Below, piece after piece: positions 10,563 through 59,773 of a DNA stretch of 64,000 nucleotides. The DNA lies in NCBI RefSeq assembly GCF_900105655.1, contig NZ_LT629787.1, forward strand, positions 2,728,001 to 2,792,000, read 5' to 3'. The notes below the pieces were generated by a model. That model was not told where the DNA came from. It saw nothing but the letters and a program-made list of their open reading frames with translations, and ran no database searches. Every line of letters starts with the position of its first letter. Within the stretch, counting starts at the first letter, position 1. The position numbers and the translations under genes were made by a program. The stretch is from Halopseudomonas salegens (lineage in GTDB: Bacteria > Pseudomonadota > Gammaproteobacteria > Pseudomonadales > Pseudomonadaceae).

Positions 10563-10815
10563 GTTTGACTCGCAATGATGGACATTGCGGGGGAGTATAA
10601 ATACCCAATTCTCATGGAGCCACACGCTGAGCAAACTCAACGTTCAAACTGCGCAGCCCGTCACACTTTTTCATCATTTACACGACAACACGGGGCGAAA
10701 AACCTGTGCCCACAACCCAGATTGCACAACATCCACACCGGGGTTTGGTCACCCGCCCACTATCGGCATTGACAGTCAAAGCAGGTATAATTACAGCTTT
10801 TTGACAGCGAGTGCG

Positions 10816-11730
10816 ATGACGTTGCTGGACATTGATCAGCTGACATTTGGCTACCGTCAACAGCCTGCCCTGCTGGCTGACATAAGCCTGCGGCTTGCCG
10901 ACGGCGACATGCTGGGGCTGCTCGGTCCCAACGGCGCGGGCAAGACTACGCTGGTGTCACTGATTACCGGCCTGCTGAAGCCTGGTCACGGCAGCATCAC
11001 GCTCAATGGCAAACAGGTAGCGCTGGGTGACCGTCGTATTGCGCTGGTGCCTCAGGAATATGCTTTTTATCCACGTCTGAGCGGGCGGGAAAATCTGACC
11101 TTTTTTGCCGGTGTGCAAGGCTTGAAGGGCAACACGGCCAAACAGGCGGTCGACAGAGTACTGGCGCAATGTGCGCTGACTGACACACAACACCAACGTG
11201 CAGCCCGGTATTCGGGCGGGCTCAAACGCCGACTGAATTTTGCCATCGCCATATTGACCCATCCGCAGTTGCTGATTCTGGACGAACCGACGGCCAACGT
11301 GGACCCGCAAACCCGCAAGCTGTTATTGGACATTGTCCGCGAGCTGCACCAGGAGGGCGTCGGCATTATCTACACCTCACACCTACTGGGTGAGGTGGAA
11401 AACCTGTGCAACCAGGTTGCCCTCTTGCACGGGGGCAGACTGGTGCTGCACGGCAGCATGGATGAACTGCTCAGGGATGCGCAGCAGTCCGTATCCCTGA
11501 AACCGACACAAACACCTTCTGCCGAACTGGTCTCGCGCTTCAACGCCTGTCAGCAAGCCGACCACTGGTGGCGCTTTGAACTCCCCGCAGGCACGACCGT
11601 GGCTGGCTTGCTCAGCACGCTTGAACAGGCAGGCCTGCATTACACGCATATTCGCTACGGCACCCAGGCGCTGGAAGATATTTATCTGGCGCTGACCAGT
11701 GATACCCACCCTGCAAGCGCTGCTTCATGA
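10816..11730 (+). CDS. ABC transporter ATP-binding protein (lipid/polyketide exporter)
   Basis: This 304-residue ATPase starts at MTLLDIDQLTFGYRQ; I rejected the longer upstream frame because its extra 77 residues are unlike any ABC protein. It has Walker A GPNGAGKTT (about residues 38-46), the signature YSGGLKRRLNFA, Walker B LLILDEPTANVDP and a switch His in YTSHLLGEVE. The C-terminal ~80 residues form the extra domain seen in ABC-2-type drug and lipid exporters. The stop codon overlaps the permease ATG by four bases (ATGA). It opens an operon with an ACP and ketosynthases and is presumably the exporter for the product or its lipid intermediate. A TATAAT at 10786-10791 is upstream but its -35 partner is unclear. 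Confidence 0.9.
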   Translation: MTLLDIDQLTFGYRQQPALLADISLRLADGDMLGLLGPNGAGKTTLVSLITGLLKPGHGSITLNGKQVALGDRRIALVPQEYAFYPRLSGRENLTFFAGVQGLKGNTAKQAVDRVLAQCALTDTQHQRAARYSGGLKRRLNFAIAILTHPQLLILDEPTANVDPQTRKLLLDIVRELHQEGVGIIYTSHLLGEVENLCNQVALLHGGRLVLHGSMDELLRDAQQSVSLKPTQTPSAELVSRFNACQQADHWWRFELPAGTTVAGLLSTLEQAGLHYTHIRYGTQALEDIYLALTSDTHPASAAS

Positions 11731-12890
11731 CTGCCTTTATCGCCGCACTGCGCAAGGAACTGCGGCTGCTGCTGCGTGACTGGCATGCGCTGCTGTTGTT
11801 GTTTTTGATGCCCAGTGCTTTTGTGATCATCATGTCACTGGCATTGGCCGACAGTTTTGGCGATGGCCAGCAACTGCAACTCAAAGGCTACCTCGTCAGC
11901 CCTGACACGTCCTCTGCAGCCAGCGATGATTTTCTGGCAACCCTGCGCACTTCCGGCTTGTTCGACCTGGAATCCGCGACGCTGTCCGCGCCACTCAGGC
12001 TCAGCGGGCGTAGTTTTGTTCTGCGGGTACACGATGATTTTGCCACCAGCCTGGACACCCCTGGCGCCAGCGGCTTGAGCCTTGGTTTTGCCGCCGAGAT
12101 GGGCGCCCGCGAGCGCGAGCTGATCCGCGCCGCCGTGCAACAGGCATTTGCCAGGTATTACACGCACCTGATTGCCTACGAACTGGGCTACGATGATGAC
12201 TATGCCCGCGAAGAATTGCTGCGGGAAGGTTTTATCAGCGACCTGCCCGGCACGTCTGCCGACAGCCCGAATGCCGTGCAGCAGAACGTTTCCGGCTGGC
12301 TCATCTTTGCCATGTTCATTATTGCCATTCCGCTCTCAACCACGGTCATTCAGGAGCGCAGTGAACGCACACTGATGCGCCTGCAAACGCTCGGCGCTTC
12401 ATTGACCAGCATCTATCTGGCCAAGCTGCTGCCCTATGGCATCGTCAATGTGCTGCAATTGATGCTTATGCTGGCCCTGGGCGCATGGCTGCTGCCTCTG
12501 CTGGGCGCGCGCGGCCTGTCCCTGCAGGTCAACCTGCCCGCCCTGTTGCTGATGGGGCTGGCCACCAGCTTTGCCGCCCTGTGCATGGCCAGCCTGGTCG
12601 CCACCGCCGCCCGTACCGTGGAACAGGCTACGGTGTTCAGTGGTGGCCTGAACATTTTGCTCGCTGCCATCAGCGGTATTATGATTCCAACCTTTATCAT
12701 GCCGCCGGCTATGCAAACCATTGCCGCGCTGTCACCGATGAACTGGGCCCTCGAAGGTTTTCTCGAGGTGCTGGTCAGACAAGGCGCTCCGGGCGATATA
12801 GCACACACCTGTTTTCGTTTATTTCTGTTTGGCCTCCTGATCGGGACGCTGGCAGCATTTCTGCTGAAAAGGAACAATCATCATGGCTGA
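11727..12890 (+). CDS. ABC-2 type transporter permease
   Basis: This 387-residue inner-membrane permease has one N-terminal helix (about 20-42), a large extracytoplasmic domain (about 43-195), then five helices in the C-terminal half (from WLIFAMFIIAIPLSTTVI to the end, including LNILLAAISGIMIPTFIMPP). This is the ABC-2/DrrB-YhhJ topology. It forms the transporter with the preceding ATPase; only one permease gene is present, so a homodimer is expected. Its last eight bases overlap the ACP gene. Within this locus it most likely exports the polyketide or resorcinol lipid. Confidence 0.88.
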   Translation: MTAFIAALRKELRLLLRDWHALLLLFLMPSAFVIIMSLALADSFGDGQQLQLKGYLVSPDTSSAASDDFLATLRTSGLFDLESATLSAPLRLSGRSFVLRVHDDFATSLDTPGASGLSLGFAAEMGARERELIRAAVQQAFARYYTHLIAYELGYDDDYAREELLREGFISDLPGTSADSPNAVQQNVSGWLIFAMFIIAIPLSTTVIQERSERTLMRLQTLGASLTSIYLAKLLPYGIVNVLQLMLMLALGAWLLPLLGARGLSLQVNLPALLLMGLATSFAALCMASLVATAARTVEQATVFSGGLNILLAAISGIMIPTFIMPPAMQTIAALSPMNWALEGFLEVLVRQGAPGDIAHTCFRLFLFGLLIGTLAAFLLKRNNHHG

Positions 12891-13149
12891 GTCAGATGCC
12901 GAGCTGAAACACGCACTGAAAGTATTGGTCATTGAGGAATGTGACAAGGATGAACTGAGTCCGGAAGACATCAGCGATGATCAGGCTCTGCTGGGTGGCG
13001 ATCTGGACCTGGATTCACTCGATGTGCTGCAAATCTGCATGGCGATAAAAGCCCAGTACGGTGTGCGCATCGAGGGCTCTTCGGAGGCACGCAAGGCGCT
13101 GAGGTCAATCAATACCCTGGCGCAAACCATTGTTGATCGCCGCAACTGA
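12883..13149 (+). CDS. Acyl carrier protein
   Basis: This 88-residue carrier protein has GGDLDLDSLDVLQ, with Ser45 as the expected 4'-phosphopantetheine site in the D-S-L motif. It is acidic and helical over the rest of its length (IEECDKDELSPEDI). AAGGA precedes the start, which lies inside the end of the permease gene; its stop overlaps the ketosynthase start by one base. It should carry the growing chain for the following ketosynthase and may present the acyl group to the BtrH-like acyltransferase. It is distinct from the two ACPs of the aryl-polyene cluster. Confidence 0.9.
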   Translation: MAESDAELKHALKVLVIEECDKDELSPEDISDDQALLGGDLDLDSLDVLQICMAIKAQYGVRIEGSSEARKALRSINTLAQTIVDRRN

Positions 13150-14333
13150 TGCAAGTCTGCCTCTCAGCCTATGACGCGCATTGTGCGCTGGGTCGCGGCG
13201 TCGATGCCTGTGTCGATCAGTTGCTGGCTGGCGGTGTGGCCGTCGGCCAGCGCCAGTTTGACGATCTCAACGAACCCCTGACCCTGCCCTACTTTGGCAT
13301 CCCTGCAGCCGGTGACAATGACGCGGATAACGAGCCAGACCTGTACCGCTGCCTCAATCAGATTGCCGCCGGCGTTCTGGCCAAAGCCGGACTGGATGCA
13401 GCGGCCAGGCAGCGCACGGCGATACTGCTCGGCTCGTCTTCATTTGACGTGCAAGTCTCCGAACAGCGCTATCAGGCCGACCTGCAGGAACGTGGCGATG
13501 CAGCAGTACCCATGCCGATTGTCGGTTACGGCAAGCTGGCCGAGCGCCTGGCCAGTGAACTGGCGCTGAGTGAATACCGTTTTACCTACAGCACTGCCTG
13601 TACCTCCAGTGCCAACGCCCTGCTCTATGGCCAACGCCTGATCAGTGCAGGACTGGTTGACCATGCGCTGGTCATAGGTCTGGAGTGGAGAAACCTCACC
13701 AGCATCCTGGGCTTTGCCGGGTTGGGGCTGCTCAGCCCGACGGCCAGCATGCGCCCCTTTCAAAGTGGCCGGGACGGCTTGCTGCTCGGCGAAGCTATCG
13801 GCTGTGTACTACTCAGCCATCCGCAATACGCAGCCACAAACACGCCTCGCCTGGCCGGTGGCGCCATCGCCACCGACAATCACAGCCTGACTGCTGCCAA
13901 TATTGACGGTTCAGAGCTGGCCATGGTCATCCGGCTGGCATTGCAGGACAGCGGCATTGAAAGCGCGCAAATAAAAGGCATCAAAGCCCATGCAACCGCT
14001 TCCCTGAAAAATGACGAAGCCGAATCTGCCGCTATCCGGCAGGTGCTGGGTGACACACCGCCGCCCCTGTTTGCCCTGAAACCCTTTTGCGGGCACACAC
14101 TGGGGGCCTGCGGTGCTCTGGAGCTGGCACTGACGCTGGGCTGCATGTCCCGCGGGGTGTTGCCTGGAAACCGGAATATCCAGTGTGATGAATCGCTCGG
14201 CATCAGCCTGTTGGGAGAAACCATCCCGGCCGACAGCGGCTATTACCTGCTCAACTCGTTTGCCTTCGGCGGGAACAATAACGCCCTGGTGATCCATTAT
14301 TCGGGCAGCGAGGCACCTCCATGCGCATCGTAA
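13149..14333 (+). CDS. Beta-ketoacyl synthase (type II PKS/FAS-like)
   Basis: This 394-residue ketosynthase has the complete active site: Cys151 in TYSTACTSSANAL, His281 in IKAHATASLKND, Lys311 and His316 in KPFCGHTLGACGALE. The family condenses an acyl primer with malonyl-ACP. It closely resembles the aryl-polyene KS at 61609-62787 in motif context (STACTSSA, GHTLGACGALE), so the two systems share ancestry. It overlaps the next gene by 13 bases; that gene encodes a KS-like protein without the Cys, so a KS/chain-length-factor heterodimer is a sensible inference. Product chain length is not readable from sequence. Confidence 0.9.
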   Translation: MQVCLSAYDAHCALGRGVDACVDQLLAGGVAVGQRQFDDLNEPLTLPYFGIPAAGDNDADNEPDLYRCLNQIAAGVLAKAGLDAAARQRTAILLGSSSFDVQVSEQRYQADLQERGDAAVPMPIVGYGKLAERLASELALSEYRFTYSTACTSSANALLYGQRLISAGLVDHALVIGLEWRNLTSILGFAGLGLLSPTASMRPFQSGRDGLLLGEAIGCVLLSHPQYAATNTPRLAGGAIATDNHSLTAANIDGSELAMVIRLALQDSGIESAQIKGIKAHATASLKNDEAESAAIRQVLGDTPPPLFALKPFCGHTLGACGALELALTLGCMSRGVLPGNRNIQCDESLGISLLGETIPADSGYYLLNSFAFGGNNNALVIHYSGSEAPPCAS

Positions 14334-15217
14334 TCAGCAGCCACTACAGTTTGCTGCACAGCATCGATGCAACCGAGCAGCAATTGCCTGACATTCAGGC
14401 ATTGATCAAACGCTGGCACCCCGAGCGTATCCGCCGTATCGATCGTTATATTCAACTGTGCGTGGCCGGCGGGCTGAATTGTGTGGCTGGTCGTCAGTTG
14501 CCTGCCGACACCGGCGTGTATCTGAGCTCAAGCGCTGGCGCAGTGAGTACTTCAAGCGCCGCCATGCGGCATATCCAACGGCAGGGCGAACTGCCCAAGC
14601 CACTGCATTTCGTGAACACCCTGGGCAACTCTGCCGGCTATTACCTGACCCGGCTACTGCAGCTCAATGGCAATGCCTTGCTGGTTTCAGACGAGGAACT
14701 GTCTTTTGAAGCGGCCCTGCTGCATGCTGGCATGGACCTGCTGGCCGGCCGCATCAGCACGGCACTGGTGGGCGGTTTCGATGAGGTGGCGATGCCCATT
14801 GCGCAGCACCTGGAACGACTGCAGGCGCCAGCCGATACTGCCAGCCTCTATGAAGGCAGTCATTGGTTATTGCTGGAACGGCAGGACGACAATCACAGCC
14901 CCAACCAGCCACACGGCGAGCTGGAACTACCCTGCTATCTGCGCGGCACCGGGCAACTGAGTCAGTGGCTGGCCCAACACCCCGGGCTGCCGCTGCAACT
15001 GAGCTTCAGACCGGATGCAGACGAATGCGAGCTGTTGGCCGACAGAGAGTGGCAAGCCTTTGGTGGCCGGGCATTGCCGCACGGTGTCTTTTCCGGCGCG
15101 GCACTGAGTGCATTGGCTGGCGGGGGGCGGTCAGCGATTCACCTGAGCAAAAAAAGCGGTGGTAGCTACTGCGCAGTGATGGTCAGCGTTTTGCAGTCGC
15201 CTGAACCCAGCCTTTGA
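14321..15217 (+). CDS. Ketosynthase-like protein lacking the active-site Cys (possible chain-length factor)
   Basis: This 298-residue protein resembles the N-terminal two-thirds of a ketosynthase: VYLSSSAGAVSTSSAAM, HFVNTLGNSAGYYLTRLLQ, LLAGRISTALVGGFDE. Where ketosynthases have the catalytic Cys (normally in TACSS-like context), it reads LGNSAG, so condensation chemistry is not expected. The C-terminal His motifs are also absent or unrecognisable, and the protein is about 100 residues shorter than a full KS. In type II polyketide systems such inactive partners act as chain-length factors. The 13-base overlap with the active KS gene supports tight stoichiometry. It ends tail-to-tail with, and overlaps by 35 bases, the BtrH-like gene on the other strand. 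Confidence 0.72.
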   Translation: MRIVISSHYSLLHSIDATEQQLPDIQALIKRWHPERIRRIDRYIQLCVAGGLNCVAGRQLPADTGVYLSSSAGAVSTSSAAMRHIQRQGELPKPLHFVNTLGNSAGYYLTRLLQLNGNALLVSDEELSFEAALLHAGMDLLAGRISTALVGGFDEVAMPIAQHLERLQAPADTASLYEGSHWLLLERQDDNHSPNQPHGELELPCYLRGTGQLSQWLAQHPGLPLQLSFRPDADECELLADREWQAFGGRALPHGVFSGAALSALAGGGRSAIHLSKKSGGSYCAVMVSVLQSPEPSL

Positions 15218-16181
15218 GCCCCTGCCAGGCAGCATTTTCCTGTTCCGCACACGCTCGCAGCTTGTCGGCCAGCACCTGACGATTGATCGGCTGATCGCGC
15301 TTGCACTGCTTGGCCACCAGCAAAGCAAACTCGCGCCAACCATCACCCACTGCAGTCATGTTTTCCGAGGCATCGGCCAGCGCCTGATCACCCAGTATAT
15401 TGGCCGCTTCCTGCAGGAACGAGGCATAGATAAACCTGAAGCCGGCGCCACCGGTACCGATCTCTTCCTGCATGCGCACAATGTGGCCCAGAAACAGTCG
15501 CTGCTCCTGATCAGTACCTTTGAGCCGCTCGATCTTGCCCGCCAGGTACCGGATGCCGCGCACACCGATTATTGGCAAGGGCGCGCCGGTCATGACCTTG
15601 ACGTTCTTGCGGATGGCGTCATGAATCAAACGCGGATAGTCCAGCTGCTGCGGCACCGATTCAATGGTGTACATCAAGCCTTTGGGTGCCAGCGGACCGC
15701 GCACAAAACGCGCCTTGTTCAGATCACGCGGCGCGATCTGCACAGGTTCTTCAAAGATCGGGTCGCTGACCAGGTAATTTTTATCCTGTTTGCCATACAC
15801 CAGCAAATTATGCGCATTGAAATGAAAACGCATTTCCTCGGGAAAGTACGGCAGGTAGTACACGGACGTCTGCAAGCCTACCGGCGTGTTGGCTGCCAGC
15901 AAATCGTCCAGCGCATTGGCCGCACGCAGCGGATCCTTGAATGTGTGGAAGCCAACCTGCACGCCCAGGCGCTTGCACAGATTCTTGATGATAAAGCGCG
16001 GCGGCAGGCGATAGGCAATCAGCGGTTGACCGGCCAGCTTCACGATCGGTATGTAGGCAAATGCCAGCGCATTGGACAGGCCAAAAGCCATCGGCTCGGA
16101 GATCGGCAAACCATGATGGGTAAGCAAGGCAGAGATAGCGCCACTTTCACAGTGAGCTGACTGGGTGTGCTGAAATGTCAT
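15183..16181 (-). CDS. BtrH-like acyltransferase (papain-fold)
   Basis: This 332-residue protein is recognisable as a BtrH N-terminal domain protein with the companion C-terminal DUF4872-like region. The N-terminus has HCESGAISALL (Cys11), and later FNAHNLLVYGKQ (a conserved His) and YLVSDPIFE (an Asp), which together can form a Cys-His-Asp site. BtrH of butirosin biosynthesis transfers an acyl chain from an ACP onto an aminoglycoside amine. By analogy this protein could off-load the ACP-bound chain onto an amine or alcohol acceptor; the acceptor is unknown. Its start overlaps the stop of the upstream small gene (ATGA), so it belongs to the minus-strand arm of the locus with DarA/DarB-like genes. 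Confidence 0.8.
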   Translation of the reverse strand: MTFQHTQSAHCESGAISALLTHHGLPISEPMAFGLSNALAFAYIPIVKLAGQPLIAYRLPPRFIIKNLCKRLGVQVGFHTFKDPLRAANALDDLLAANTPVGLQTSVYYLPYFPEEMRFHFNAHNLLVYGKQDKNYLVSDPIFEEPVQIAPRDLNKARFVRGPLAPKGLMYTIESVPQQLDYPRLIHDAIRKNVKVMTGAPLPIIGVRGIRYLAGKIERLKGTDQEQRLFLGHIVRMQEEIGTGGAGFRFIYASFLQEAANILGDQALADASENMTAVGDGWREFALLVAKQCKRDQPINRQVLADKLRACAEQENAAWQGLKGWVQATAKR

Positions 16182-16585
16182 GGGCGTGGTTCCGGCAGGG
16201 TTTTCAGTTCACTGATCGATTTATCCATGGCCCGCGCATAACGCGACAGCACGCGGTCACTCAAACCGGCAAAGACTGCCGGTCTGAAATGGCGATTGAC
16301 CCGCCACCGCCAGAACCCGGTGAGCTGACAAAGCAGCGGCGGGTCGATTCGGCAATCGTACATGTGAAAATACAAGGGAGATTTTTCTCCGGCCTCAACT
16401 TGCGCACGCGCCTGATCGGCCCAGGCCTGGTATTGAGCCACAGCATCCAGCGTTGCATTGGCCTCGGCTTCCCAGCCGGAAGACTGCACACCGGTGTAAG
16501 CGCCGGATTCGTCCTTGGCATACAGCAGCTTTTTATGTCCGGCGTAGGTACTGGACTGATCTTGTGGCACTTCATCAACGCGCAT
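16178..16585 (-). CDS. Conserved small protein of the DAR-like locus
   Basis: This 135-residue soluble protein starts MRVDEVPQDQSSTYAGHKKL. I recall similar proteins (same start, a central GVQSSGWEAEA and a C-terminal WRWRVNRHFRPAVF with ALA-type helices) next to ketosynthases in other Pseudomonas-like genomes, but know of no assigned function. It has no membrane segment or catalytic motif I can name. The C-terminal basic part (RHFRPAVFAGLSDRVLSRYA) could be a helix-turn-helix-like region, which is only a guess. It overlaps the BtrH-like gene by four bases, so the two probably work together. Confidence 0.65.
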   Translation of the reverse strand: MRVDEVPQDQSSTYAGHKKLLYAKDESGAYTGVQSSGWEAEANATLDAVAQYQAWADQARAQVEAGEKSPLYFHMYDCRIDPPLLCQLTGFWRWRVNRHFRPAVFAGLSDRVLSRYARAMDKSISELKTLPEPRP

Positions 16586-16676
16586 GCAAGCCTCACTGGG
16601 CGGTAAATTCAGACGGCCATTTTTTTATCGGATTGCCAACTGGCGCCGAGCCGCCGGCAGTGGCGCTCGCACGGTC

Positions 16677-17828
16677 TCAAACCACGGTCAACAACATATA
16701 GGAGACGGTGAAACGCCCGCTTTCCGGGATATAACACAGGATTTTCTCGCCGCTTTGCAGGCGGCCACTTTTGAACAGCTCGTCAATCATGATGTAAATG
16801 GACGCAGCACCCGTATTGCCCTTTTCCGAGAGGTTACTGAACCAGCGCGACTGATCAATACCAAAGCCGACTATCTGCATGGCCTGATCAAGCTTGTCGC
16901 GGAAATAGTGCGAAGAAAAGTGCGGTACAAAATAATCAATCTGTTCGGCTGCAATAGCGTACTTTTCCTGCAGCACAGGGAGCGTGCGTGAAGCCGTGTA
17001 AGCAATGATATGCTCGTTGAGCTGTTTGACATCCTGCTTGATCGACAAGAAACTTTCGCCGTTGCAAACCGACCGGTCCACCGCCTGCCAGCCCGTAAGC
17101 GAACCATCCGCTTCCTTGCGACCACCGGCATACATGCACACCTTCATTTCATTGGCGTAGGACAGGTTGTCGATCCAGTCAATCCGCAACGCCTGCCCCT
17201 GCGCTGGCTTTTCGGATTGCAACAACACAGCACCGGCGCCATCAGAAAGCATCCAGCGCAAAAAATCCTTTTCAAAGGCAATTTCCGGATTGCTTTCCAG
17301 CGCGGCAATCTTGTGCGCCAGCTCCGGCTCGAAGTTCTCTGCCTTCAACGCGTAGGATGCGGCTTCCGAGGCTGCCGCTACCGCACTTGGATGCTGACCG
17401 GCAGCCACGTTCAACCAGGCATATTTCATTGCCGTCATGCCACTGACGCATACGCCGGAAGCACTGGCCACCTCGCAGGGCGGCGAGCCCAACTCACCGT
17501 GCACCATCGAAGCATGGCCGGGCATGATCTGATCGGGAAGGCTGCTGGCCGCGGCCAGGCAACTGATATCGTTCAAAGCAAAACCTTCGTCAGCCAGACG
17601 GCGAATTGCTTCAGCGCACAGTTGCGCATTGGTGTAGTTATGCTTGCCGGTGACCGGATCAATCGCGTAATAACGCGTCTTGATCTGATTGCTGCGCAAA
17701 ATCATCTTGCGCGAGCGCGAAGGACGCTCACCCACCTGGCCAAGAACGCGCTCCATGCTGTCGTTATCGACCGGGGCATTGGGCAAGAAACTGGCTGTAC
17801 GCGTGATATAAACAGATTGAGCTGACAT
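16677..17828 (-). CDS. darB: KAS III-like condensing enzyme of the DarB type
   Basis: This 383-residue protein starts at MSAQSVYITRTASFLPN; the ATG at 17828 fits family N-termini, whereas the upstream extension (22 residues) overlaps the previous gene and looks non-coding. The KAS III triad is intact: Cys127 in ASASGVCVSGM, His in YFVPHFSSHYF, Asn in LSEKGNTGAAS. DarB enzymes condense two acyl-thioester-derived chains to make the ring of dialkylresorcinols and related cyclohexanediones. It lies directly after the DarA-like gene, as in known DAR loci. The acyl partners may come from the adjacent ACP/KS genes or from fatty-acid metabolism. Confidence 0.82.
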   Translation of the reverse strand: MSAQSVYITRTASFLPNAPVDNDSMERVLGQVGERPSRSRKMILRSNQIKTRYYAIDPVTGKHNYTNAQLCAEAIRRLADEGFALNDISCLAAASSLPDQIMPGHASMVHGELGSPPCEVASASGVCVSGMTAMKYAWLNVAAGQHPSAVAAASEAASYALKAENFEPELAHKIAALESNPEIAFEKDFLRWMLSDGAGAVLLQSEKPAQGQALRIDWIDNLSYANEMKVCMYAGGRKEADGSLTGWQAVDRSVCNGESFLSIKQDVKQLNEHIIAYTASRTLPVLQEKYAIAAEQIDYFVPHFSSHYFRDKLDQAMQIVGFGIDQSRWFSNLSEKGNTGAASIYIMIDELFKSGRLQSGEKILCYIPESGRFTVSYMLLTVV

Positions 17829-17850
17829 TATTGCAACAAGTCCTGATGTA

Positions 17851-18789
17851 TTAATCGCCGGTGGGCCCGGCATAATAAGCCTTCTGCCGGGCAATACGTT
17901 TTTTCAACAACGGTGAAAACAGGAGTTTCAGAATCGCCGTTATCGGCACCACAGTTACAATCATCAGCAGCAGGAACACCGTGTAGAGTGCTGCGAGAGG
18001 CTTGCGGATCCAGCTGTCCGGTGTACCGCAGGCCAAAAACAATTTGCCCCACAGGTAGAAGCTGCGGGTAGCAATTTTTTCGCTGAGTATCAGCTTGTCA
18101 TTGACCGGGGCCGATCCCAGCCCCTGCAGCACGTCGACATCCAGCGCTTGCGTGCCCGTCAGCCGTTGGCGCAGTGCCTCGCCAAAGCGCTGGGCACCCT
18201 CGACGTCGCGGTCTGACACACCGGCCGGCGGCACCAGCCCAAACCAGTGGGGACCCTTGCGACCAGTGAGCACCCACAACGGGGTGGCAAAAAAACTGGC
18301 AATACTGCCAGCCGCATCCACCAGTACTATATTGCCGACCAGTTTGGCACCCAGTTTGTGTAGATGCGCCTTCACCTTTTCCTGTGCCTGCAGCCACATA
18401 TTGCGGCAGGCGATCACGGTAACCACCGGCGTATCGGCCAAGAGTGTCGCAGCCAGATCGGATTGCAAAAATGAAGACACCGGAATCGAAGGCGCCAGAT
18501 ACCAGACCTGATAGGCAAGAATCACCAGATCGTAATCTGCCTGCAAACCTTCAGTCTGCATATCCAGCGCACAGGGAACCTGATGCGCTGACTCGGGAAA
18601 GGTGTTGATAAATTGCAGAAACGGCCAGGGAAAAGGAAAAGCCTCTACCGGCTTGATGGGCAAAAAATCCACCTGCACGGCTTCATCATTCAGCAAGGGA
18701 GTCGCTACTGAACGTGCCACACGATCGATTTGACCGGTCTGTGAGTAGTGAATGACCAGCACGCGTTTTTTTGTATTCGAATCCTGCAA
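17851..18789 (-). CDS. darA: DarA-like dialkylresorcinol-forming enzyme, membrane-anchored
   Basis: This 312-residue protein begins with a flavodoxin-like strand-loop (VLVIHYSQTGQIDRVA), suggesting flavin binding, followed by a Rossmann-like region with VILAYQVWYLAPSIPV. The C-terminus (from about 270: LAALYTVFLLLMIVTVVPIT) is a membrane helix ending in a Lys/Arg-rich tail. It matches the family annotated as dialkylresorcinol condensing enzyme (DarA), which is thought to aromatise the ring made by DarB. The likely start is TTG at 18789, with AGAGG upstream; an internal GTG at Val10 is an alternative. It precedes the DarB-like gene by 22 bases, heading the minus-strand arm. Confidence 0.78.
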   Translation of the reverse strand: MQDSNTKKRVLVIHYSQTGQIDRVARSVATPLLNDEAVQVDFLPIKPVEAFPFPWPFLQFINTFPESAHQVPCALDMQTEGLQADYDLVILAYQVWYLAPSIPVSSFLQSDLAATLLADTPVVTVIACRNMWLQAQEKVKAHLHKLGAKLVGNIVLVDAAGSIASFFATPLWVLTGRKGPHWFGLVPPAGVSDRDVEGAQRFGEALRQRLTGTQALDVDVLQGLGSAPVNDKLILSEKIATRSFYLWGKLFLACGTPDSWIRKPLAALYTVFLLLMIVTVVPITAILKLLFSPLLKKRIARQKAYYAGPTGD

Positions 18790-18891
18790 ACCTTACCTCT
18801 CCACACATCGCGCCTGCCGATGAATATCGTGCGAGAGCCATGCTAAACTGCGCGAAAGTTTATCATAGCTTGGCAAACTGACGGTAACAGC

Positions 18892-19350
18892 ATGCAACAT
18901 TCAGGACAGTGGCGTAGCACTTTATTGGCGAGCCTGACGGGCATCGCTGCCATGCTGGCCTGCGTATCGGTCGCAGCCAGCCCCCTTTGCCTGCTGATCA
19001 CTGACAACCGCTCGCCGGCACTGCCCCTGTACCTGGCCGTCTATCCAGCCAGCGCTGAAGACTGGGGCAATGAGCCGCACCTGCTTCTGCAGGACATCCT
19101 GCCAGAGACGGACACCGTGGAGATCGCGCTGGAGATTCCGCCCGGCGATTACGCCATCCGCGCGTTTGTTGACCTCAATGGCGATGGAGAGCTGAACCTG
19201 AACCACAAGGATCGGCCGACAGAGCCCTTTGCCAGCAGCCTGAGCCACGATCGCAACCGCCGCAGCCAACGCTTTGAACATGCCATCATCAGCCTGTCCG
19301 CAGACGAACCCTGCGCAAGACTCAATCTGACTTATCCACGCGGCAGTTAA
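18892..19350 (+). CDS. DUF2141-like exported protein
   Basis: This 152-residue protein has a Sec signal peptide (hydrophobic LLASLTGIAAMLACVSVAAS, cleavage near residue 29). The mature part has the Ig-like DUF2141 pattern, with IPPGDYAIRAFVDLNGDGEL and LNHKDRPTEPF; the DLNGDGEL stretch may bind calcium. DUF2141 proteins are periplasmic, of unknown function, and occur with outer-membrane or carotenoid/polyene pigment genes. It is divergent from the DarA-like gene and overlaps the end of the hotdog gene on the other strand by four bases. It probably serves the periplasmic side of the product pathway. Confidence 0.75.
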   Translation: MQHSGQWRSTLLASLTGIAAMLACVSVAASPLCLLITDNRSPALPLYLAVYPASAEDWGNEPHLLLQDILPETDTVEIALEIPPGDYAIRAFVDLNGDGELNLNHKDRPTEPFASSLSHDRNRRSQRFEHAIISLSADEPCARLNLTYPRGS

Positions 19351-19655
19351 GCCGCAGACATCACAAAAGAGGCGTCCAGGATCTGCACGGTGTCCGCCGC
19401 CTCAATCGGGTGCTCAACACTCACGTGCACACGTGGCCAACGACGGTCATCAATGCTGATCCGGGCTGTTTGATCGGGCAACAGCGGGGCCAGAAACTTG
19501 ACTTTCTTCAACGCCTCAACGCGGCAGTCCGGATAACGGGCCAGTAACGCGGCGTGTACTTTGCCGAGTACCCAGGCACCCGGCACCACCGGCATCCCTG
19601 GGAAGTGACCCTGCACACAGGGTGCATCGGCTTCAACAATAAATGGTTCAGGCAT
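19347..19655 (-). CDS. FabZ/FabA-like hotdog dehydratase
   Basis: This 102-residue single-hotdog protein has the diagnostic VQGHFPGMPVVPGAWVLGKV, with the catalytic-type His in GHFPG. It is shorter than FabZ (about 150 residues) and resembles the ApeI-type dehydratase subunits of aryl-polyene systems, which work as heterodimers with ApeP-type partners. A divergent ApeP-like gene begins 48 bases away. I infer a 3-hydroxyacyl-ACP dehydratase pair for the DAR-like locus. Without a ketoreductase in the locus, its substrate would need to be made elsewhere. Confidence 0.75.
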   Translation of the reverse strand: MPEPFIVEADAPCVQGHFPGMPVVPGAWVLGKVHAALLARYPDCRVEALKKVKFLAPLLPDQTARISIDDRRWPRVHVSVEHPIEAADTVQILDASFVMSAA

Positions 19656-19703
19656 GGGTTATGATTAGCCCCTCAATTAACGACAGCGCTCCGATTGAAC
19701 ACT

Positions 19704-20168
19704 ATGGATACCAGCACATTGTCTGCACCCTTGCCACCGATTGCCGACCTGTTGCCACACAGCGCCCCTATGGTGCTGCTGGATTCTATCACCCAATGGG
19801 ATGAGCAGAATATTCGCTGCCAGGCGCACAGCCACCTGCAGCCCGACAACCCTCTGCGCGATGCCGGCGTGTTGTCGGTATTTGCCGGGGTCGAATATGC
19901 CGCTCAGGCGATGGCAGCGCATGCCCGCTTGCTCAGTCCGGCGGCCGCAGGCGGCCCACCACGCAAGGGCTTTCTCGCCGTCGCCTCAAAACTCAACGCC
20001 AGCGTCGATGTGCTCGACAGCCTCTCCGCGCCCATGCACATCGAGGCGAACATGCTGGCCCACAATGCCGACAGCTCACTCTATGCTTTCAGCCTGACGG
20101 CGGACGGTCAGACATTGCTCACCGGTCAGCTGACGGCCGTTACCGTCAGCGATAACAGCACGGATTGA
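19704..20168 (+). CDS. ApeP-like hotdog dehydratase subunit
   Basis: This 154-residue protein starts MDTSTLSAPLPPIADLLPH; an upstream TTG would add only three residues. The IADLLPHSAPMVLLDSIT segment and the central VFAGVEYAAQAMAAHARLL match the ApeP/FabZ-like hotdog family. The aryl-polyene ApeP in this window (62784-63272) has the corresponding YVPHRGDICLLERL and GIEWLAQAVSAWAG, so the two are distant paralogues. It probably pairs with the small FabZ-like protein encoded divergently at 19347-19655 as the heterodimeric dehydratase of the DAR-like pathway. Confidence 0.78.
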   Translation: MDTSTLSAPLPPIADLLPHSAPMVLLDSITQWDEQNIRCQAHSHLQPDNPLRDAGVLSVFAGVEYAAQAMAAHARLLSPAAAGGPPRKGFLAVASKLNASVDVLDSLSAPMHIEANMLAHNADSSLYAFSLTADGQTLLTGQLTAVTVSDNSTD

Positions 20169-49190: not shown

Positions 49191-49221
49191 TTGCAACCTC
49201 TTGCCCGAAAATAGTTTGAGT

Positions 49222-49890
49222 ATGGAAAAGCTTGCCCACATAGAAGACTGGGTTGCATGGAGTAATGCGCCTTCGGCAGCCTTCCGCTCGGCAAATGGCC
49301 AGACTACCGCGCTGTCAGGCCAATCCTTGCCGCCCATGCTCAAGCGTCGCTTGAACGCGCAGGGCCGTGCCTGCTGCGAAATCCTCAACCAGCTGATCCC
49401 GAATGCTGACTTGCCGGTTATTCATGCGTCACGCCATGGTGACTTGCAGACATCCCTGACGCTGCTGAGTGACATCGTCAGTGATGGCCATGCATCGCCT
49501 GCCCGGTTTTCCCTCTCGGTGCATAACGCGGTGCTGGGCGTCTATTCCATTGCCAGCGGCAATCAAAACAGCATGCAGGCTCTCGCTGCTCGCGGCGGCG
49601 AGTTCGATGCGGCCATGGAAGAAGCGGCAGGTTACCTGCATGACGGCCATCCCGCAGTCGTTGTGCTGTTGAGTGACGATGCAGCGCCTGTGCTGTTGTC
49701 CGGGCATCTTTCACAACCCCGGCACGCCTGTGCGGTTGGTTTGCGACTGACCTTGAGTAGCGGGCAACCCCTGTGTCGGACAGCTGCCCCCGATGTCGGC
49801 AATCCCGGCCCGATCGATGTGCTTGAATGGCTTGAAACACCTTCAGCCGAGTTGCCGGCACGCGCCCTCTGGACTCTGGGCTCGTTATGA
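49222..49890 (+). CDS. apeC: Ketosynthase chain-length factor of aryl-polyene synthesis
   Basis: This 222-residue protein belongs to the short ketosynthase-like family (Ketoacyl-synt_2) found at the head of aryl-polyene clusters. It starts MEKLAHIEDWVAWSNAPSAA and has ASRHGDLQTSLTLLSDIV and SVHNAVLGVYSIASGNQNSM. Where ketosynthases have the catalytic Cys, this region has no Cys. In studied APE systems the equivalent protein (ApeC) pairs with the ApeO ketosynthase, here at 61609-62787. It overlaps the next gene by four bases (ATGA). Confidence 0.85.
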   Translation: MEKLAHIEDWVAWSNAPSAAFRSANGQTTALSGQSLPPMLKRRLNAQGRACCEILNQLIPNADLPVIHASRHGDLQTSLTLLSDIVSDGHASPARFSLSVHNAVLGVYSIASGNQNSMQALAARGGEFDAAMEEAAGYLHDGHPAVVVLLSDDAAPVLLSGHLSQPRHACAVGLRLTLSSGQPLCRTAAPDVGNPGPIDVLEWLETPSAELPARALWTLGSL

Positions 49891-50723
49891 CAGTTGACCA
49901 GCTCAAGCGCGGTGTCGGCACGGCATTGTCATTCAGTGTTTTTGGCCTTGGCGGGTTGCTGATCACCCTGCTCAGCTACCCGATGCTGCTGATACCCGGC
50001 ATCGAGCGTCGGCACCATTACGGGCGCAAGCTGATCCAGCTGGCTTTTCGCGGCTTTATTGGAGTGATGCGCTGTTGCGGGGTACTGGACTACCGGATTG
50101 ACAATCAAGAGCTACTCAACCAGCGCGGCCACCTGATCATCGCCAATCACCCATCATTGATTGATGTGATATTTCTGGTCGCCAATGTGCCCAATGCCGA
50201 TTGCGTGGTCAACGGCCACCTGGCGCGGAATATTTTTACCCGGGGACCCATTCGGGTCGCCGGATTCATTACCAACACCGACCCCCAGCAAGTCCTGGAA
50301 GCCGCACGCAGCAGCCTGGCCCGGGGCAACTCACTGGTCGTGTTCCCGGAAGGCACGCGCACGGTACCCGGAAGGCCGCTGCGCTTTCGCCGCGGCGCAG
50401 CGAATATCGCCCTGCATACCCGGCCACCTGTTACACCTGTACTGATCAGCTGCAGCCCGACCACGCTGACCAAGGGGGAACCCTGGTATCACATCCCCCG
50501 CAAGCAGGTTTTCATGCACTTCAAGGTTCTACCGACCCTGCATGATCATCTGACCGACGAATGGCCCTGTAACCGGCATGGCGCAAAGGGCCTGACGCAC
50601 TGGCTGAATGATTATTTTATTCGAGAAATGGAGCAGTTCAATCATGAGCGACACCCCGAAGCGTACCCAGGAAATCAAGCAGATGATCATCGACGTGCTG
50701 GAACTGGAAGATATTCAGCCTGA
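49887..50723 (+). CDS. PlsC-like 1-acyl-glycerol-phosphate-type acyltransferase
   Basis: This 278-residue membrane acyltransferase has an N-terminal hydrophobic segment (about 15-40) and the PlsC motifs: NHPSLID (H-X4-D) and VVFPEGTRT. It corresponds by position to ApeD of known aryl-polyene clusters, thought to help attach the polyene to a lipid. The C-terminal ~27 residues extend past the ACP start, giving an 80-base overlap with the next gene, which is unusually long. Confidence 0.85.
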   Translation: MTVDQLKRGVGTALSFSVFGLGGLLITLLSYPMLLIPGIERRHHYGRKLIQLAFRGFIGVMRCCGVLDYRIDNQELLNQRGHLIIANHPSLIDVIFLVANVPNADCVVNGHLARNIFTRGPIRVAGFITNTDPQQVLEAARSSLARGNSLVVFPEGTRTVPGRPLRFRRGAANIALHTRPPVTPVLISCSPTTLTKGEPWYHIPRKQVFMHFKVLPTLHDHLTDEWPCNRHGAKGLTHWLNDYFIREMEQFNHERHPEAYPGNQADDHRRAGTGRYSA

Positions 50724-50913
50724 CGATATCGAAGCTGACGCCCCCCTGTTCGGTGAAGGCTTGGGGCTGGACTCGATTGACGCGCTGGAAATAGGCCTGG
50801 CGCTGCAAAAGCGTTATGGCATTAAACTGGACGCTGAAGATGAAAGCACTCGCACCCATTTTGCCAGCATCAACAGTCTGGTAGCACTTGTGGAGGCGCA
50901 TGATGGCAACTGA
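50644..50913 (+). CDS. apeE: Acyl carrier protein 1 (APE)
   Basis: This 89-residue carrier protein has GEGLGLDSIDALEIG, with Ser44 as the phosphopantetheine site. It starts at ATG 50644, preceded by GGAG in the acyltransferase gene. It is one of two tandem ACPs, as in studied APE clusters (ApeE and ApeF). The chain is built on one or both of these. Confidence 0.88.
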   Translation: MSDTPKRTQEIKQMIIDVLELEDIQPDDIEADAPLFGEGLGLDSIDALEIGLALQKRYGIKLDAEDESTRTHFASINSLVALVEAHDGN

Positions 50914-51166
50914 CGCACTGCAAAGTCGTGAGCAGATCCTGGACGAATTGCGTCGCATACTGGTCGACCTGTTTGAACTGGATGCCGACGACATCACCCC
51001 GCAAGCGAAACTGTACGAAGACCTTGATATCGACAGTATCGACGCCGTCGATCTGGTGGTCGAACTCAAGCGCGTCACCGGCAAGCGGGTCAACCCGGAA
51101 AACTTCAAGGCCGTGCGTACAGTTGATGATGTTATAGACGCGGTAGCCGGCCTGATGGCCAACTGA
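50903..51166 (+). CDS. apeF: Acyl carrier protein 2 (APE)
   Basis: This 87-residue carrier protein has DLDIDSIDAVDLVVELK, with Ser45 as the attachment site. I chose the ATG at 50903 because GGAGG lies six bases upstream; an ATG three bases earlier is too close to it. Its start overlaps the first ACP gene by 11 bases. Two ACPs with different helix 2-3 regions suggest distinct partners, for example one for the aryl starter and one for elongation. Confidence 0.88.
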   Translation: MATDALQSREQILDELRRILVDLFELDADDITPQAKLYEDLDIDSIDAVDLVVELKRVTGKRVNPENFKAVRTVDDVIDAVAGLMAN

Positions 51167-51171
51167 ACTGC

Positions 51172-51705
51172 ATGCCCGTGACACTGCGCATTCTGCTTGG
51201 CATCTTGCTGGCGTGCTGGCCATTGGTCGTCTATTTCGGACACGCCTGGCTGGGGCCCTGGCCGCTTTTGATCGCCGGTGCCCTGCTACTTGCCTGGCGC
51301 CTGCCACAGGCGCGCGGCATTGCCGTTTTCTGCGCTGTCGGACTGGTTGGCCTGGGGCTGCTCGGCCATGCCGAACTGGGAGTGCGCGCCTACCCGGTAG
51401 CCGTCAACCTGATCATGCTGGGAGTGTTCGGCAGCAGCCTGCTGCACGGCCAGCCGCTGGTCGAACAGTTCGCCCGGCTGCAGGAGCCTGACCTCCCGGC
51501 AGCCGCCGTGGCCTATACCCGCAGAGTCACCCAGGCCTGGTGTCTGTTCTTTATAGTCAACGGTAGCCTCGCGGCCTGGACTGCCCTGTACGCCGAGCTC
51601 AGCACCTGGGCGCTGTATAACGGTGTCATCAGCTACATCCTGATCGGTATCATGTTTGCCGGTGAATGGATGCTTCGGCACCGGCTGCGCCAGGAGGCGA
51701 AATGA
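51172..51705 (+). CDS. COG4648-like membrane protein (APE)
   Basis: This 177-residue protein is largely hydrophobic with about five membrane helices (from TLRILLGILLACWPLVVYFG to GVISYILIGIMFAGEWM). It corresponds in position to the conserved membrane protein of APE clusters (ApeG in the letter order). Function is unknown. It overlaps the following AMP-ligase gene by four bases (ATGA). Confidence 0.8.
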   Translation: MPVTLRILLGILLACWPLVVYFGHAWLGPWPLLIAGALLLAWRLPQARGIAVFCAVGLVGLGLLGHAELGVRAYPVAVNLIMLGVFGSSLLHGQPLVEQFARLQEPDLPAAAVAYTRRVTQAWCLFFIVNGSLAAWTALYAELSTWALYNGVISYILIGIMFAGEWMLRHRLRQEAK

Positions 51706-53381
51706 GTTTTACCCCACTGCATGAAATGCCCTGGCGCCGGTGTGCGGCCAACTCCCCTTCCCCGGGGCCTGCCTGGGTCAATCTGGCCGAACTGAACCGC
51801 TTGATTGATCGATGGCACGCCTGGCTGCACGGGCAGCCGGACGGCAACTGGTTGTTGATCAATCGTGACCCGCTGCACTTCACCGCGGCCCTGCTGGCAC
51901 TGTGGGAAAGCGGGCGCAGCGCGGTGCTGCCCGCCGACGACCGGCCCGACACCCTGCAGCGCATCGAAGAACTGGTCTCCGGCAACCTGCCGGCCTTGCC
52001 GCCGGAATATCCGGCAGACGGCGCCGTCGACATTCCCCGGCAACTGTCGCCGTCCCATCCAGCCGTTATTCTGTTCACCTCCGGCAGTAGCGGTCTGCCG
52101 GTTGCCTTGCCGAAACGGCTCGAGCAGCTGGATGCCGAACTCCAGGTGCAATCGCGGCTGTGGCCGCTGGGTACTGGCGCCGCCGTCATTTCACAGGTCA
52201 GCCATCAGCATATTTATGGTCTGCTGACCGGACTGCTGCACCCGTTGTGCAGTGGCACGCCTTTCTGTGGCAATACCAGCCACTACCCCGAAGTGCTGCT
52301 CAAACGCCTGCAGGAAGCCAGCGCTGCCACACTGCAGGCCACGGTGATCAGCTCACCCTCGGTACTGTCGCGGCTCCCCGAGAACCTGGACTGGAACGCA
52401 CCGCCAGACCGACTCTTTTCCTCTGGTGCCCCCCTGGCATCAACCGATGCACAGCGCTGTGAAAGCCTGTTGCAGGCGCCGGTCATTGAAATCTACGGCA
52501 GTACCGAGACCGGTGGCATTGCCTGGCGACAACAATCCCGCCGGGCCGACTGGCGACCACTGCCCGGAGTCGAGCTCGACTTTACTCAGCCTTGCCTTGC
52601 CATTCGCTCGCCCTTTCTCGCCGAGCCTGAACAATGGTGGCGGCACAGCGATCATGCCCAGCCGACAGAGCAGGGCTTTCAGCTCCTGGGGCGCGCCGAC
52701 CGCATTGCCAAGGTTGGCGGCAAACGCATCTCACTGACCCGGATCGAACACGACCTGCAGCAGGCAACCGGCGTACTGACCGCCTGCTGCTCCAGCCTGG
52801 ATGAACGTGATGGCCGCCTGGTTGCCGTGGTGGCAATGGAGGACAGCTGCCTGCCTCATTACCGCGAGCAGCGCCTGCAACTGACCCGGCAGCTGCGGCA
52901 CCAGCTTGCTCAGTCGCTGGAGCCGATCGCCATTCCGCGGCTATGGCGGTTTGTCCGCCAGCTGCCCAGCAATGCTCAGGGCAAGCTTGACCGCAGCCTG
53001 CTGGAAAAACTCTTTGCCGACCGGCATGACAGAACGCGCCCCCGCTGGCTTGGACTGACAACCCTGTCTCCGCACCACGCCAGGCTGGAACTGGAAGTCC
53101 CCGAACACCTGGTATATCTGGAAGGCCACTTCGACAGTTACTCACTGGTTCCCGGCGTGGTGCAGATTCAATGGGCCATCGACCTGGCGGAAGAGCAATT
53201 TGCCTGCTGCTGTCAGGTCGCCGACATGGACCGTCTCAAATTCCAGCAGCCGCTGCGCCCGGGCATGCGATTCACCCTGGAACTGGAGCTCAGCGCCAGC
53301 GCCCTGCGTTTCAGCTTCGACTCCTGCGAGGGGCGCCATAGCAGTGGAACACTCAAGCGCCGGGCGGAAACGAGCGCATGA
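51702..53381 (+). CDS. AMP-dependent acyl/aryl ligase fused to a hotdog dehydratase
   Basis: This 559-residue fusion has an adenylation domain (about 1-450) and a C-terminal dehydratase-like domain (about 455-559). The first has the P-loop ILFTSGSSGLPVALPK, EIYGSTETGGIAWR, GRADRIAKVGGKRIS and the catalytic Lys in NAQGKLDRSLL; it should activate the aryl starter (such as coumarate) and load an ACP. The hotdog part has GHFDSYSLVPGVVQIQWA, with His476 in place and Asp where FabZ-type proteins have Pro. AGGAGG precedes the ATG at 51702. In studied APE clusters these are two genes (ApeH and ApeI); the ApeI part should pair with the ApeP-like protein at 62784-63272. Confidence 0.85.
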   Translation: MSFTPLHEMPWRRCAANSPSPGPAWVNLAELNRLIDRWHAWLHGQPDGNWLLINRDPLHFTAALLALWESGRSAVLPADDRPDTLQRIEELVSGNLPALPPEYPADGAVDIPRQLSPSHPAVILFTSGSSGLPVALPKRLEQLDAELQVQSRLWPLGTGAAVISQVSHQHIYGLLTGLLHPLCSGTPFCGNTSHYPEVLLKRLQEASAATLQATVISSPSVLSRLPENLDWNAPPDRLFSSGAPLASTDAQRCESLLQAPVIEIYGSTETGGIAWRQQSRRADWRPLPGVELDFTQPCLAIRSPFLAEPEQWWRHSDHAQPTEQGFQLLGRADRIAKVGGKRISLTRIEHDLQQATGVLTACCSSLDERDGRLVAVVAMEDSCLPHYREQRLQLTRQLRHQLAQSLEPIAIPRLWRFVRQLPSNAQGKLDRSLLEKLFADRHDRTRPRWLGLTTLSPHHARLELEVPEHLVYLEGHFDSYSLVPGVVQIQWAIDLAEEQFACCCQVADMDRLKFQQPLRPGMRFTLELELSASALRFSFDSCEGRHSSGTLKRRAETSA

Positions 53382-54127
53382 GTACTCTGCAACCCTGCTT
53401 TCTGATTCCGGTATACAACCATCCGCAAACGATCGCTGCCGTGTGTCAGGAGCTCGCCGTCTATGATCTGCCGATTCTCCTGGTAGATGACGGTTCCGAT
53501 CCTGCCTGTGCGGCAGTACTCGATGAGTTGCAGGCCAACCAGGGTCACAGCTTGTTGCGTCTGCCACACAATGCCGGCAAGGGGGCGGCTGTTCGGACCG
53601 GCCTGTTTGCTGCCCAACGCCAGGGTTTCACCCACGCCCTGCAGGTGGATGCCGACGGCCAGCATGACATAGCCGACCTGCAGGCCTTTCTCGAGGGTAT
53701 GCAGCAGCAACCGAATGCGCTGATTGCCGGTTATCCGCAGTATGATGACAGTGTCTCGCGGCTGCGCTTCTACGGCCGCTACGCCACCCATATCTGGGTC
53801 TGGATCAATACCCTGTCGCTGGACATCAAGGACACCATGTGCGGCGCCCGCCTGTACCCCCTTGATGCATTGATACCCATGCTTGAACGGCATAGCTGTG
53901 GCAATCGGATGGACTTCGATACCGAGGTACTGGTGCGCTGGCACTGGGCCGGGCATGCCGTCTGCAACCTGCCGGTCCATGTACGTTACCCCGCTGACGG
54001 CATCAGCCATTTCCGCCTCTGGCGTGACAACCTGCTGCTTACCCGCATGCATACCCGGCTGTTTTTCGGCATGCTCCTGCGCCTGCCCCGACTATTGGCG
54101 CGCAAGCTGCGACGGAGCCGGGCATGA
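53378..54127 (+). CDS. Family 2 glycosyltransferase (APE)
   Basis: This 249-residue enzyme has a GT-A fold: FLIPVYNHPQTIAAV at the N-terminus, VDDGSDPACA, and the DXD-like QVDADGQHDIAD (about 90). It resembles dolichyl-phosphate mannose synthase-type transferases. The last ~60 residues are basic (RLLARKLRRSRA). In APE clusters it comes before an acyltransferase; in some relatives these are one fused protein. It probably adds a sugar to the polyene or its lipid anchor. It overlaps both neighbours by four bases. Confidence 0.85.
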   Translation: MSTLQPCFLIPVYNHPQTIAAVCQELAVYDLPILLVDDGSDPACAAVLDELQANQGHSLLRLPHNAGKGAAVRTGLFAAQRQGFTHALQVDADGQHDIADLQAFLEGMQQQPNALIAGYPQYDDSVSRLRFYGRYATHIWVWINTLSLDIKDTMCGARLYPLDALIPMLERHSCGNRMDFDTEVLVRWHWAGHAVCNLPVHVRYPADGISHFRLWRDNLLLTRMHTRLFFGMLLRLPRLLARKLRRSRA

Positions 54128-56596: not shown

Positions 56597-57023
56597 TCGC
56601 CCGTTACCGCGCTGTGAAATCGAGCTGGAAATCCCCTTCCATGACGTCGACATGATGCGCGTTGTCTGGCATGGCCATTACGTTCGCTATCTTGAAATCG
56701 CCCGTTGCGCGTTGCTCGATATGCTCGACTTCAACTATCTGCAGATGTGCGAGGCTGGCCACGCCTGGCCCGTCATTGATATGCGCCTGCGTTATGCCGC
56801 ACCGGCAACCTTTACCCAGACAATTGCCATAGAGGCCCGGCTGACCGAATGGGAGCACCGGCTCAAAATCGATTACACCATTCGTGATGCACAAACGCGG
56901 CAGCGCCTGAACCGGGCCTGGACCGTTCAGGTCGCGGTTGGTATCGAAGATCAGGAAATGCGCCTGGTCTCACCCCCGGTGCTGGAACAGCGACTGCTGG
57001 CCTGGCAGGAGCAGCAAACCTGA
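56583..57023 (+). CDS. Hotdog acyl-thioesterase (YbgC/4HBT-type, APE)
   Basis: This 146-residue hotdog thioesterase starts MTPNDRPLPRCEIELEIPFH. The motif FHDVDMMRVVWHGHYVRYLE contains the D-x-D and the conserved H-x-x-Y of YbgC-type thioesterases. In studied APE clusters the equivalent (ApeK) may release stalled or finished chains from the ACP. It overlaps the lyase stop codon by 14 bases and its last base overlaps the next gene. Confidence 0.85.
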   Translation: MTPNDRPLPRCEIELEIPFHDVDMMRVVWHGHYVRYLEIARCALLDMLDFNYLQMCEAGHAWPVIDMRLRYAAPATFTQTIAIEARLTEWEHRLKIDYTIRDAQTRQRLNRAWTVQVAVGIEDQEMRLVSPPVLEQRLLAWQEQQT

Positions 57024-57514: not shown

Positions 57515-57516
57515 GC

Positions 57517-59769: not shown

Positions 59770-59773
59770 CCAG

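Follow-up and report, generated by a model that had tools for sequence, protein, structure and literature searches.

A dialkylresorcinol locus of Halopseudomonas salegens as the probable half of an aryl-polyene-dialkylresorcinol pigment pathway

What is made by the polyketide-type genes at positions 10816-20168 of a 64,000-nucleotide stretch of the Halopseudomonas salegens genome (contig NZ_LT629787.1, positions 2,728,001 to 2,792,000; hereafter the window)? A model's first-pass annotation of this sequence had described a dialkylresorcinol (DAR)-like locus and had stated that it matched no described pathway. We conclude that the locus is probably the DAR half of a pathway for an aryl-polyene-DAR ester pigment of the arcuflavin or flexirubin kind, and that its polyene half is the aryl polyene (APE) cluster that begins at 49201. 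We base this reading on an arcuflavin-like gene set, on the profile matches of DarB, DarG and DarH, on the presence of the APE cluster in the window, and on the co-occurrence of DarH with APE genes in other genomes.

The DAR genes and their candidate polyene partner

We assigned protein families by Pfam and NCBIfam profile scans against curated cut-offs. By the open reading frame (ORF) list of the window, the locus comprises twelve open, intact genes: a plus-strand arm (10816-15217), a minus-strand arm (15183-18789), and three further genes past DarA. DarB meets the StlD/DarB family model and aligns end to end with the solved StlD structure 5gk0 (3.7e-136 in a PDB sequence search); it falls short of the narrower exception model NF053539 (491.3 versus 550 bits). 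DarH passes the equivalog model "BtrH-related acyltransferase DarH", and DarG passes the model "DarG family". With these three proteins over curated cut-offs, the DAR-like character first given to the locus held. Its arms, however, had been called divergent, and we found that they converge, the last genes lying tail-to-tail with an overlap of 35 bp; the divergent pairs of the locus are darA/DUF2141 and hotdog/hotdog. The features are as follows, with gene names in the Azoarcus naming in brackets.

10816..11730, + strand: ABC transporter ATPase (darF); PF00005 4e-31; frame open from 10585, ATG at 10816
11727..12890, + strand: ABC-2 permease (darI); PF12698 1.7e-25, PF01061 3.1e-19
12883..13149, + strand: acyl carrier protein, ACP (darC); PF00550 6.9e-6
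13149..14333, + strand: ketosynthase, KS (darJ); PF00109 and PF02801 above cut-off; C151/H281/H316 conserved
14321..15217, + strand: KS-like partner, chain-length-factor (CLF)-like (darK); PF00109 below cut-off, CLF-like model
15183..16181, - strand: DarH, BtrH-related acyltransferase (darE); NF053550 479.5 bits, cut-off 300
16178..16585, - strand: DarG (darD); NF053536 168.6 bits, cut-off 70
16677..17828, - strand: DarB, StlD/DarB family ketosynthase, the DAR cyclase; NF005293 589.8 bits, cut-off 450; start set at an internal ATG, open frame from 17894
17851..18789, - strand: DarA, DAR aromatase type, by names of relatives; flavodoxin match weak
18840..18866, unstranded: palindrome, candidate operator, between darA and DUF2141
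18892..19350, + strand: DUF2141 protein, signal-peptide-like start by eye; PF09912 5.2e-11
19347..19655, - strand: short hotdog, ApeI-like; PF22818 25.1 bits, below the cut-off of 28.5
19695..20168, + strand: hotdog, ApeP-like; PF22817 18.2 bits, below the cut-off of 27
49201..63994, + strand: APE cluster, likely partner; extends past the window to about 2793247 of the genome

The same nine gene kinds, matched by annotation and order, make up the arcuflavin DAR locus of Azoarcus sp. BH72 (azo0283-0293). Table 1 of PMC3949708 lists its genes as darK (hypothetical), darJ (ketosynthase), darC (ACP), darI (ABC permease), darH (PilT), darG (prevent-host-death), darF (ABC ATPase), darE (BtrH-like), darD (conserved hypothetical), darB (cyclase) and darA (aromatase); DarG and DarH in the NCBI naming, which we use here, correspond by annotation to DarD and DarE of that paper. 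We rejected an undescribed pathway, because this table lists the same set. The first-pass annotation had named a characterised cluster of the same content as grounds against its reading, and one exists; it had also named a lack of homology to DAR enzymes, and here the opposite was found, as DarB passes DAR profiles. From mass spectrometry and labelling, the product of the Azoarcus genes was assigned as a DAR linked to a polyene (PMC3949708).

A polyene half is also at hand. The APE cluster lies in the same window, 29 kb past the interval first annotated, and was overlooked there. By Pfam it encodes a PF13723 KS-like protein, two full KSs (PF00109), an AMP ligase plus ApeI-like domain, a GT2 glycosyltransferase, an LpxL-like acyltransferase, an aromatic lyase, an MMPL exporter, an FAD enzyme, DUF3261 and ApeP (over cut-off); by eye, from ORFs only, it further holds an acyltransferase, two ACP-like ORFs, a membrane protein, and thioesterase-like, LolA-like, ketoreductase and phosphopantetheinyl-transferase-like ORFs. 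No PF00221 protein other than the aromatic lyase turned up in the genome, and the lyase falls under every curated cut-off (BagA/FevW 421/1000, hutH 408.5/539, and FlxA, NF053541, 324.2/700 bits). We also observed that this APE cluster is divergent: its MMPL and KS proteins share 46-48% and 61-63% identity with those of eight other ApeP-positive congeners (L131-L138), in contrast to 90% for DarB and 91% for guaA relative to genome G580. The spacing of DarH and ApeP is nearly equal in the window's genome and in G580 (47.6 and 48.4 kb), and the APE cluster may possibly have been exchanged in place.

The arrangement of the DAR genes is conserved. We drew 25 loci, of which L056 comes from the genome of the window itself and L009 and L057 represent one and the same relative; the core-set sample consisted of 20 relatives in which DarH or DarG gave a full hit, read at 16-20 kb, namely three Gilvimarinus (L010-L012), 16 Pseudomonadaceae (L057-L072) and G249 (L075). 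We found the nine core genes (ABC-ABC-ACP-KS-KS-like / BtrH-DarG-DarB-DarA) in identical arrangement in all 20, with DarA adjoining DarB as in the window. Such conservation is more than chance. The core set was not shown by L073 and L074, whose DarH hits are below cut-off, nor by L013, a Bacteroidetes contig of 5 kb that has just DarG and BtrH. Eight of the 20 core-set loci (L010-L012, L062, L064, L067, L070 and L071) have APE genes directly next to the DAR block. Extra ORFs lie between the DAR arms in Gilvimarinus L010 (11369-13027) and L012 (12245-14185), one of those in L012 being LysR-like by eye.

The putative chain-building proteins are of type II, as first proposed. The ACP carries D44-S45-L46-D47, with S45 conserved in 19 of 19 aligned rows. 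The KS scores 56.6 bits with PF00109 and 73.8 bits with PF02801 (cut-offs 20.8) and retains Cys151, His281 and His316 in all 21 aligned rows. Its KS-like partner scores 17.4 bits with PF00109, under the cut-off of 20.8, has no active-site Cys in any of 17 aligned rows, and in many relatives is just 184-193 residues long, corresponding to the N-terminal half. A structural model of the partner (mean pLDDT 81.3) found CLFs as its best matches, among them the ishigamide KS/CLF chain 6kxe_B (E 8.9e-12). An hhalign profile comparison of the partner with the KS was not significant (probability 1.5%, E 0.034), and a PDB sequence search with the partner gave chance matches only; the relation between the two is thus drawn from the predicted fold and the sub-threshold PF00109 match. 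The pair appears to be of the KS/CLF heterodimer type, with an active Cys-His-His KS and a partner of the same predicted fold that lacks the Cys, in keeping with the inactive partner of the first-pass annotation. DarA has no Pfam match and a weak match to the flavodoxin model NF005501 (16.5 versus 198 bits); among 120 relatives listed, 26 named DarA relatives comprise 15 called "dialkylresorcinol (dialkylrecorsinol) condensing enzyme" and 11 called "hypothetical protein".

DarH, polyene genes and the likely product

If the locus supplies one half of an ester pigment, an enzyme should join it to the other. DarH contains the Pfam domains BtrH_N (3.4e-49) and DUF4872 (3.3e-53), and its Cys11, His120, His124 and Asp140 are kept in 47 of 47 rows, in which the window's copy is possibly counted twice. 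These residues are as expected for a cysteine acyltransferase, and the Cys, His and Asp may form a triad. DarH is thereby a candidate for the polyene-DAR ester synthase that joins both halves; its match to an acyltransferase model agrees with the earlier suggestion that this protein may join the resorcinol to a further acceptor.

We found that DarH keeps company with polyene genes. In a family sample of 248 genomes, DarH exceeds its cut-off in 26, DarB in 27 (the same 26 plus G504), and ApeP is found at 1e-8 in 127. All 26 DarH genomes contain ApeP, versus 101 of 222 without DarH (Fisher 6.9e-9); in the window's genome, ApeP was scored on the gene of the APE cluster and not on the DAR-locus hotdog. 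We also re-examined 33 genomes, of which 9 were reached via DarG in the order sample and 23 via DarB in the class sample, the last being G504 of the family; 25 of the 33 contain DarH (9 order, 16 class). Each of these 25 genomes outside the family has PF13723, versus 6 of 35 class genomes in which DarB does not exceed its cut-off and which were picked in handle order (Fisher 1.4e-11). An APE marker thus accompanies DarH in 51 of 51 genomes tested. In four genomes whose DarB match is below cut-off (G695, G918, G637 and G841), DarA, DarB and PF13723 are all missing. Of 37 genomes sampled from the window's genus, 3, counting the window's own, have DarH over cut-off, and 9 have ApeP.

Several observations weigh against an aryl-polyene-DAR pigment. 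The pigment is here a prediction from genes. For flexirubin, the ligase-like FlxW, not DarH, was proposed as the joining enzyme (PMC3992019). Outside the family, ApeP is present in 18 of the 25 DarH genomes and missing in 7. Within it, a single contig carries both DarH and ApeP in 16 of 26 genomes, with no more than 20 kb between them in 6, no more than 65 kb in 13 and over 1 Mb in 3; in the other 10 the two are on different contigs. In addition, DarH is missing from four genomes, G504, G838, G815 and G722 (L145-L148), that possess DarA, DarB and the polyene marker PF13723, and the stretches read there show none of the other genes of the DAR block; APE and DarAB are therefore not always accompanied by DarH. 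Finally, the Fisher p-values overstate independence, because the genomes are related.

Could the product instead be a free, exported DAR, an antimicrobial or signal like 2-hexyl-5-propylresorcinol, with the nearby APE cluster independent of it? An ABC pump is part of the locus, DAR and APE clusters are often far apart, and homologues of DarA and DarB suffice for DAR formation (PMC3992019). However, the Azoarcus extracts contained the hybrid and no free DAR, as reported in PMC3949708. Moreover, the DarA/DarB-only loci of the four genomes just named indicate that DarH, DarG and the pump are dispensable for DAR as such, and it is these that accompany APE markers in all the DarH genomes tested. 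We regard a free DAR as an improbable product.

BtrH-type enzymes accept acyl groups from a dedicated ACP, and the locus has an ACP, a KS and a CLF-like partner of its own. The corresponding reading, close to the idea of the first-pass annotation, that DarH acylates the resorcinol with a chain from these proteins to give a polyene-free acyl-resorcinol lipid, seems very improbable, as it leaves the tie between DarH and APE genes unexplained and the same gene set yields a polyene-DAR in Azoarcus (PMC3949708).

For the favoured product, the aryl-polyene-DAR ester, we propose the following route. The ACP, the KS and its CLF-like partner, with the hotdogs, would build a beta-keto or unsaturated acyl chain; a ketoreductase for this chain could be borrowed from the APE cluster or from fatty-acid synthesis. 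By analogy with published homologues, DarB would join two acyl chains into a cyclohexanedione-type ring, which DarA would aromatise. DarH would then load the polyene acyl group on its conserved cysteine and pass it to a resorcinol hydroxyl, and the ABC-2 pump, together with the MMPL and LolA-like proteins of the APE cluster, would carry the pigment to the envelope. The weakest step concerns DarG, which may be an accessory protein of helix-turn-helix (HTH)-like fold and possibly a regulator.

DarG, the palindrome and local additions

In the literature available to us, the step that joins polyene and DAR is only proposed and DarG has no assigned role. A search for flexirubin and DarG returned a "darG" that is the Phd-like gene of PMC3949708 and a "DArg" that is a peptide residue in PMC11187115, and a search for BtrH and resorcinol returned PMC3949708 alone. 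Here, structural modelling gives moderate support to a lambda-repressor-like HTH fold in the C-terminal half of DarG, a feature that is new. This tentative likeness to the five-helix fold of Cro/C1-type HTH proteins is based on one Foldseek and one VIA-align search with a model that has low-confidence stretches near the N-terminus and was built without the first Met, such that its numbering is that of the protein minus one. The enzymes HppE and HEPD give the same fold match; the fold alone is therefore no proof of sequence-specific DNA binding by DarG.

A possible site for a regulator precedes darA. The palindrome at 18840-18866 is perfect (ATGnTAAACT-N7-AGTTTAnCAT), and a scan of the 3.8 Mb genome that allowed up to 3 mismatches gave no other match. 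All 5 relatives belonging to the clade (L057, L058 and the Gilvimarinus loci L010-L012), from two families, have it at the same place, making it a candidate operator; at up to 4 mismatches it is missing from the other 16 of 21 DAR loci scanned. Exact inverted repeats in the 21 loci included TGCAG (no gap) in 5 and TAAAC (gap 9) in 4, against a shuffled maximum of 2. An operator common to all DAR loci was rejected, as the best exact repeats upstream of DarA or the ABC gene are confined to related genomes. Promoter-like and terminator-like counts were unremarkable (6 versus 3.6 +/- 1.6, and 10 versus 9.2 +/- 3.6, respectively).

The three genes past DarA appear to be local additions. A DUF2141 gene adjoins DarA in 19 of the 20 core-set loci by tblastn, the exception being G249. 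A profile scan of 20 of the family's 26 DarH genomes placed it next to DarA in every one, whereas of 20 tested from outside the family none has it there and four have one elsewhere; 8 of 37 DarH-negative family genomes also possess the gene. The three Gilvimarinus loci, G580 and G541 have both hotdogs next to DAR genes, and single or fused hotdog matches occur in G249 and G773. The DarB and DarH proteins share 72-76% identity with those of Gilvimarinus versus 53-57% with those of the other Pseudomonadaceae genera read, and the APE genes of the window share 33-40% with the Gilvimarinus APE genes within reach. These values are suggestive only of a transfer of the DAR block between families. The G+C content is unremarkable (DAR 58.0%, window 58.8%).

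We tentatively offer a broader view, which as a whole we think unlikely: that DarH is the missing polyene-DAR esterifier; that the DAR block (DarH, DarG, the ABC pump, the KS with its CLF-like partner, the ACP, DarB and DarA) is a transferable add-on, making hybrid-pigment producers of APE producers wherever it is inserted; and that DarG, so far annotated as a conserved hypothetical or "biosynthesis protein", is the block's HTH regulator, acting in this clade at the single conserved palindrome before darA. Aryl-polyene-DAR pigments are found in very different bacteria. The window offers both halves in one complete genome, a consistent tie of DarH to polyene genes and a single candidate operator, and is therefore a useful case in which to test DarG and the joining step.

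Other genes surround the locus. Directly upstream, on the opposite strand, lies a gene for an Ntox44 (bacterial toxin 44) protein (9783-10640; PF15607 4.9e-26). The neighbouring lipoprotein-like ORFs at 8782-9186 and 9385-9786 are similar: in both, a signal-like stretch is followed by the motif CGVREPH. Neither has a Pfam match, and they look like a duplication. After the locus, 20217-22067 holds an overlapping DUF1254/DUF1214 gene pair and a PEMT/ICMT-like methyltransferase, a homologue of which also adjoins the DAR block in G541 (L058, 5485-6054, by eye).

Comparison with known DAR and hybrid systems

The darABC genes of Pseudomonas chlororaphis direct the synthesis of the free resorcinol 2-hexyl-5-propylresorcinol by DarA/DarB-type chemistry; they are not known to be accompanied by BtrH-like, ABC or CLF-like genes. 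Flexirubin is a polyene esterified to a DAR, and its pathway in Chitinophaga pinensis and Flavobacterium johnsoniae shares with that of the window DarA, DarB and an ammonia-lyase within the polyene cluster (PMC3992019). The window differs in that it misses the curated flexirubin models for DarG (NF053545, 128.8 versus 170 bits) and for FlxA (NF053541, scored above), and by these models it does not appear to encode a flexirubin pathway in the strict sense.

Closer to home, PMC10165715 describes hybrid APE-DAR clusters of types V1-V3, chemically uncharacterised, in marine Pseudomonadaceae. These likewise combine an APE cluster like that of E. coli or V. fischeri with a DAR cluster in the same bacterial family; in V1 the clusters are connected, whereas in the window 29 kb separate the halves.

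The closest likeness is to arcuflavin. Both marks of an arcuflavin-kind hybrid, the gene set by annotation and a polyene cluster in the genome, are present, and in Azoarcus as well the polyene (arc) loci are separate, elsewhere on the chromosome (PMC3949708). The two systems differ in that the Azoarcus locus has PilT- and Phd-like genes inside and, by locus numbers, another arm order, and in that its polyene is chorismatase-started (xanthomonadin-like), whereas the APE cluster of the window has an aromatic amino acid lyase. Because DUF2141 and the two hotdogs are missing from the Azoarcus table, the window locus is a variant of the arcuflavin set. What is new here is the predicted fold of DarG, the single conserved palindrome, and DUF2141 and the two hotdogs as additions; as a class the locus is ordinary, of the conserved arcuflavin or hybrid APE-DAR kind with few local additions.

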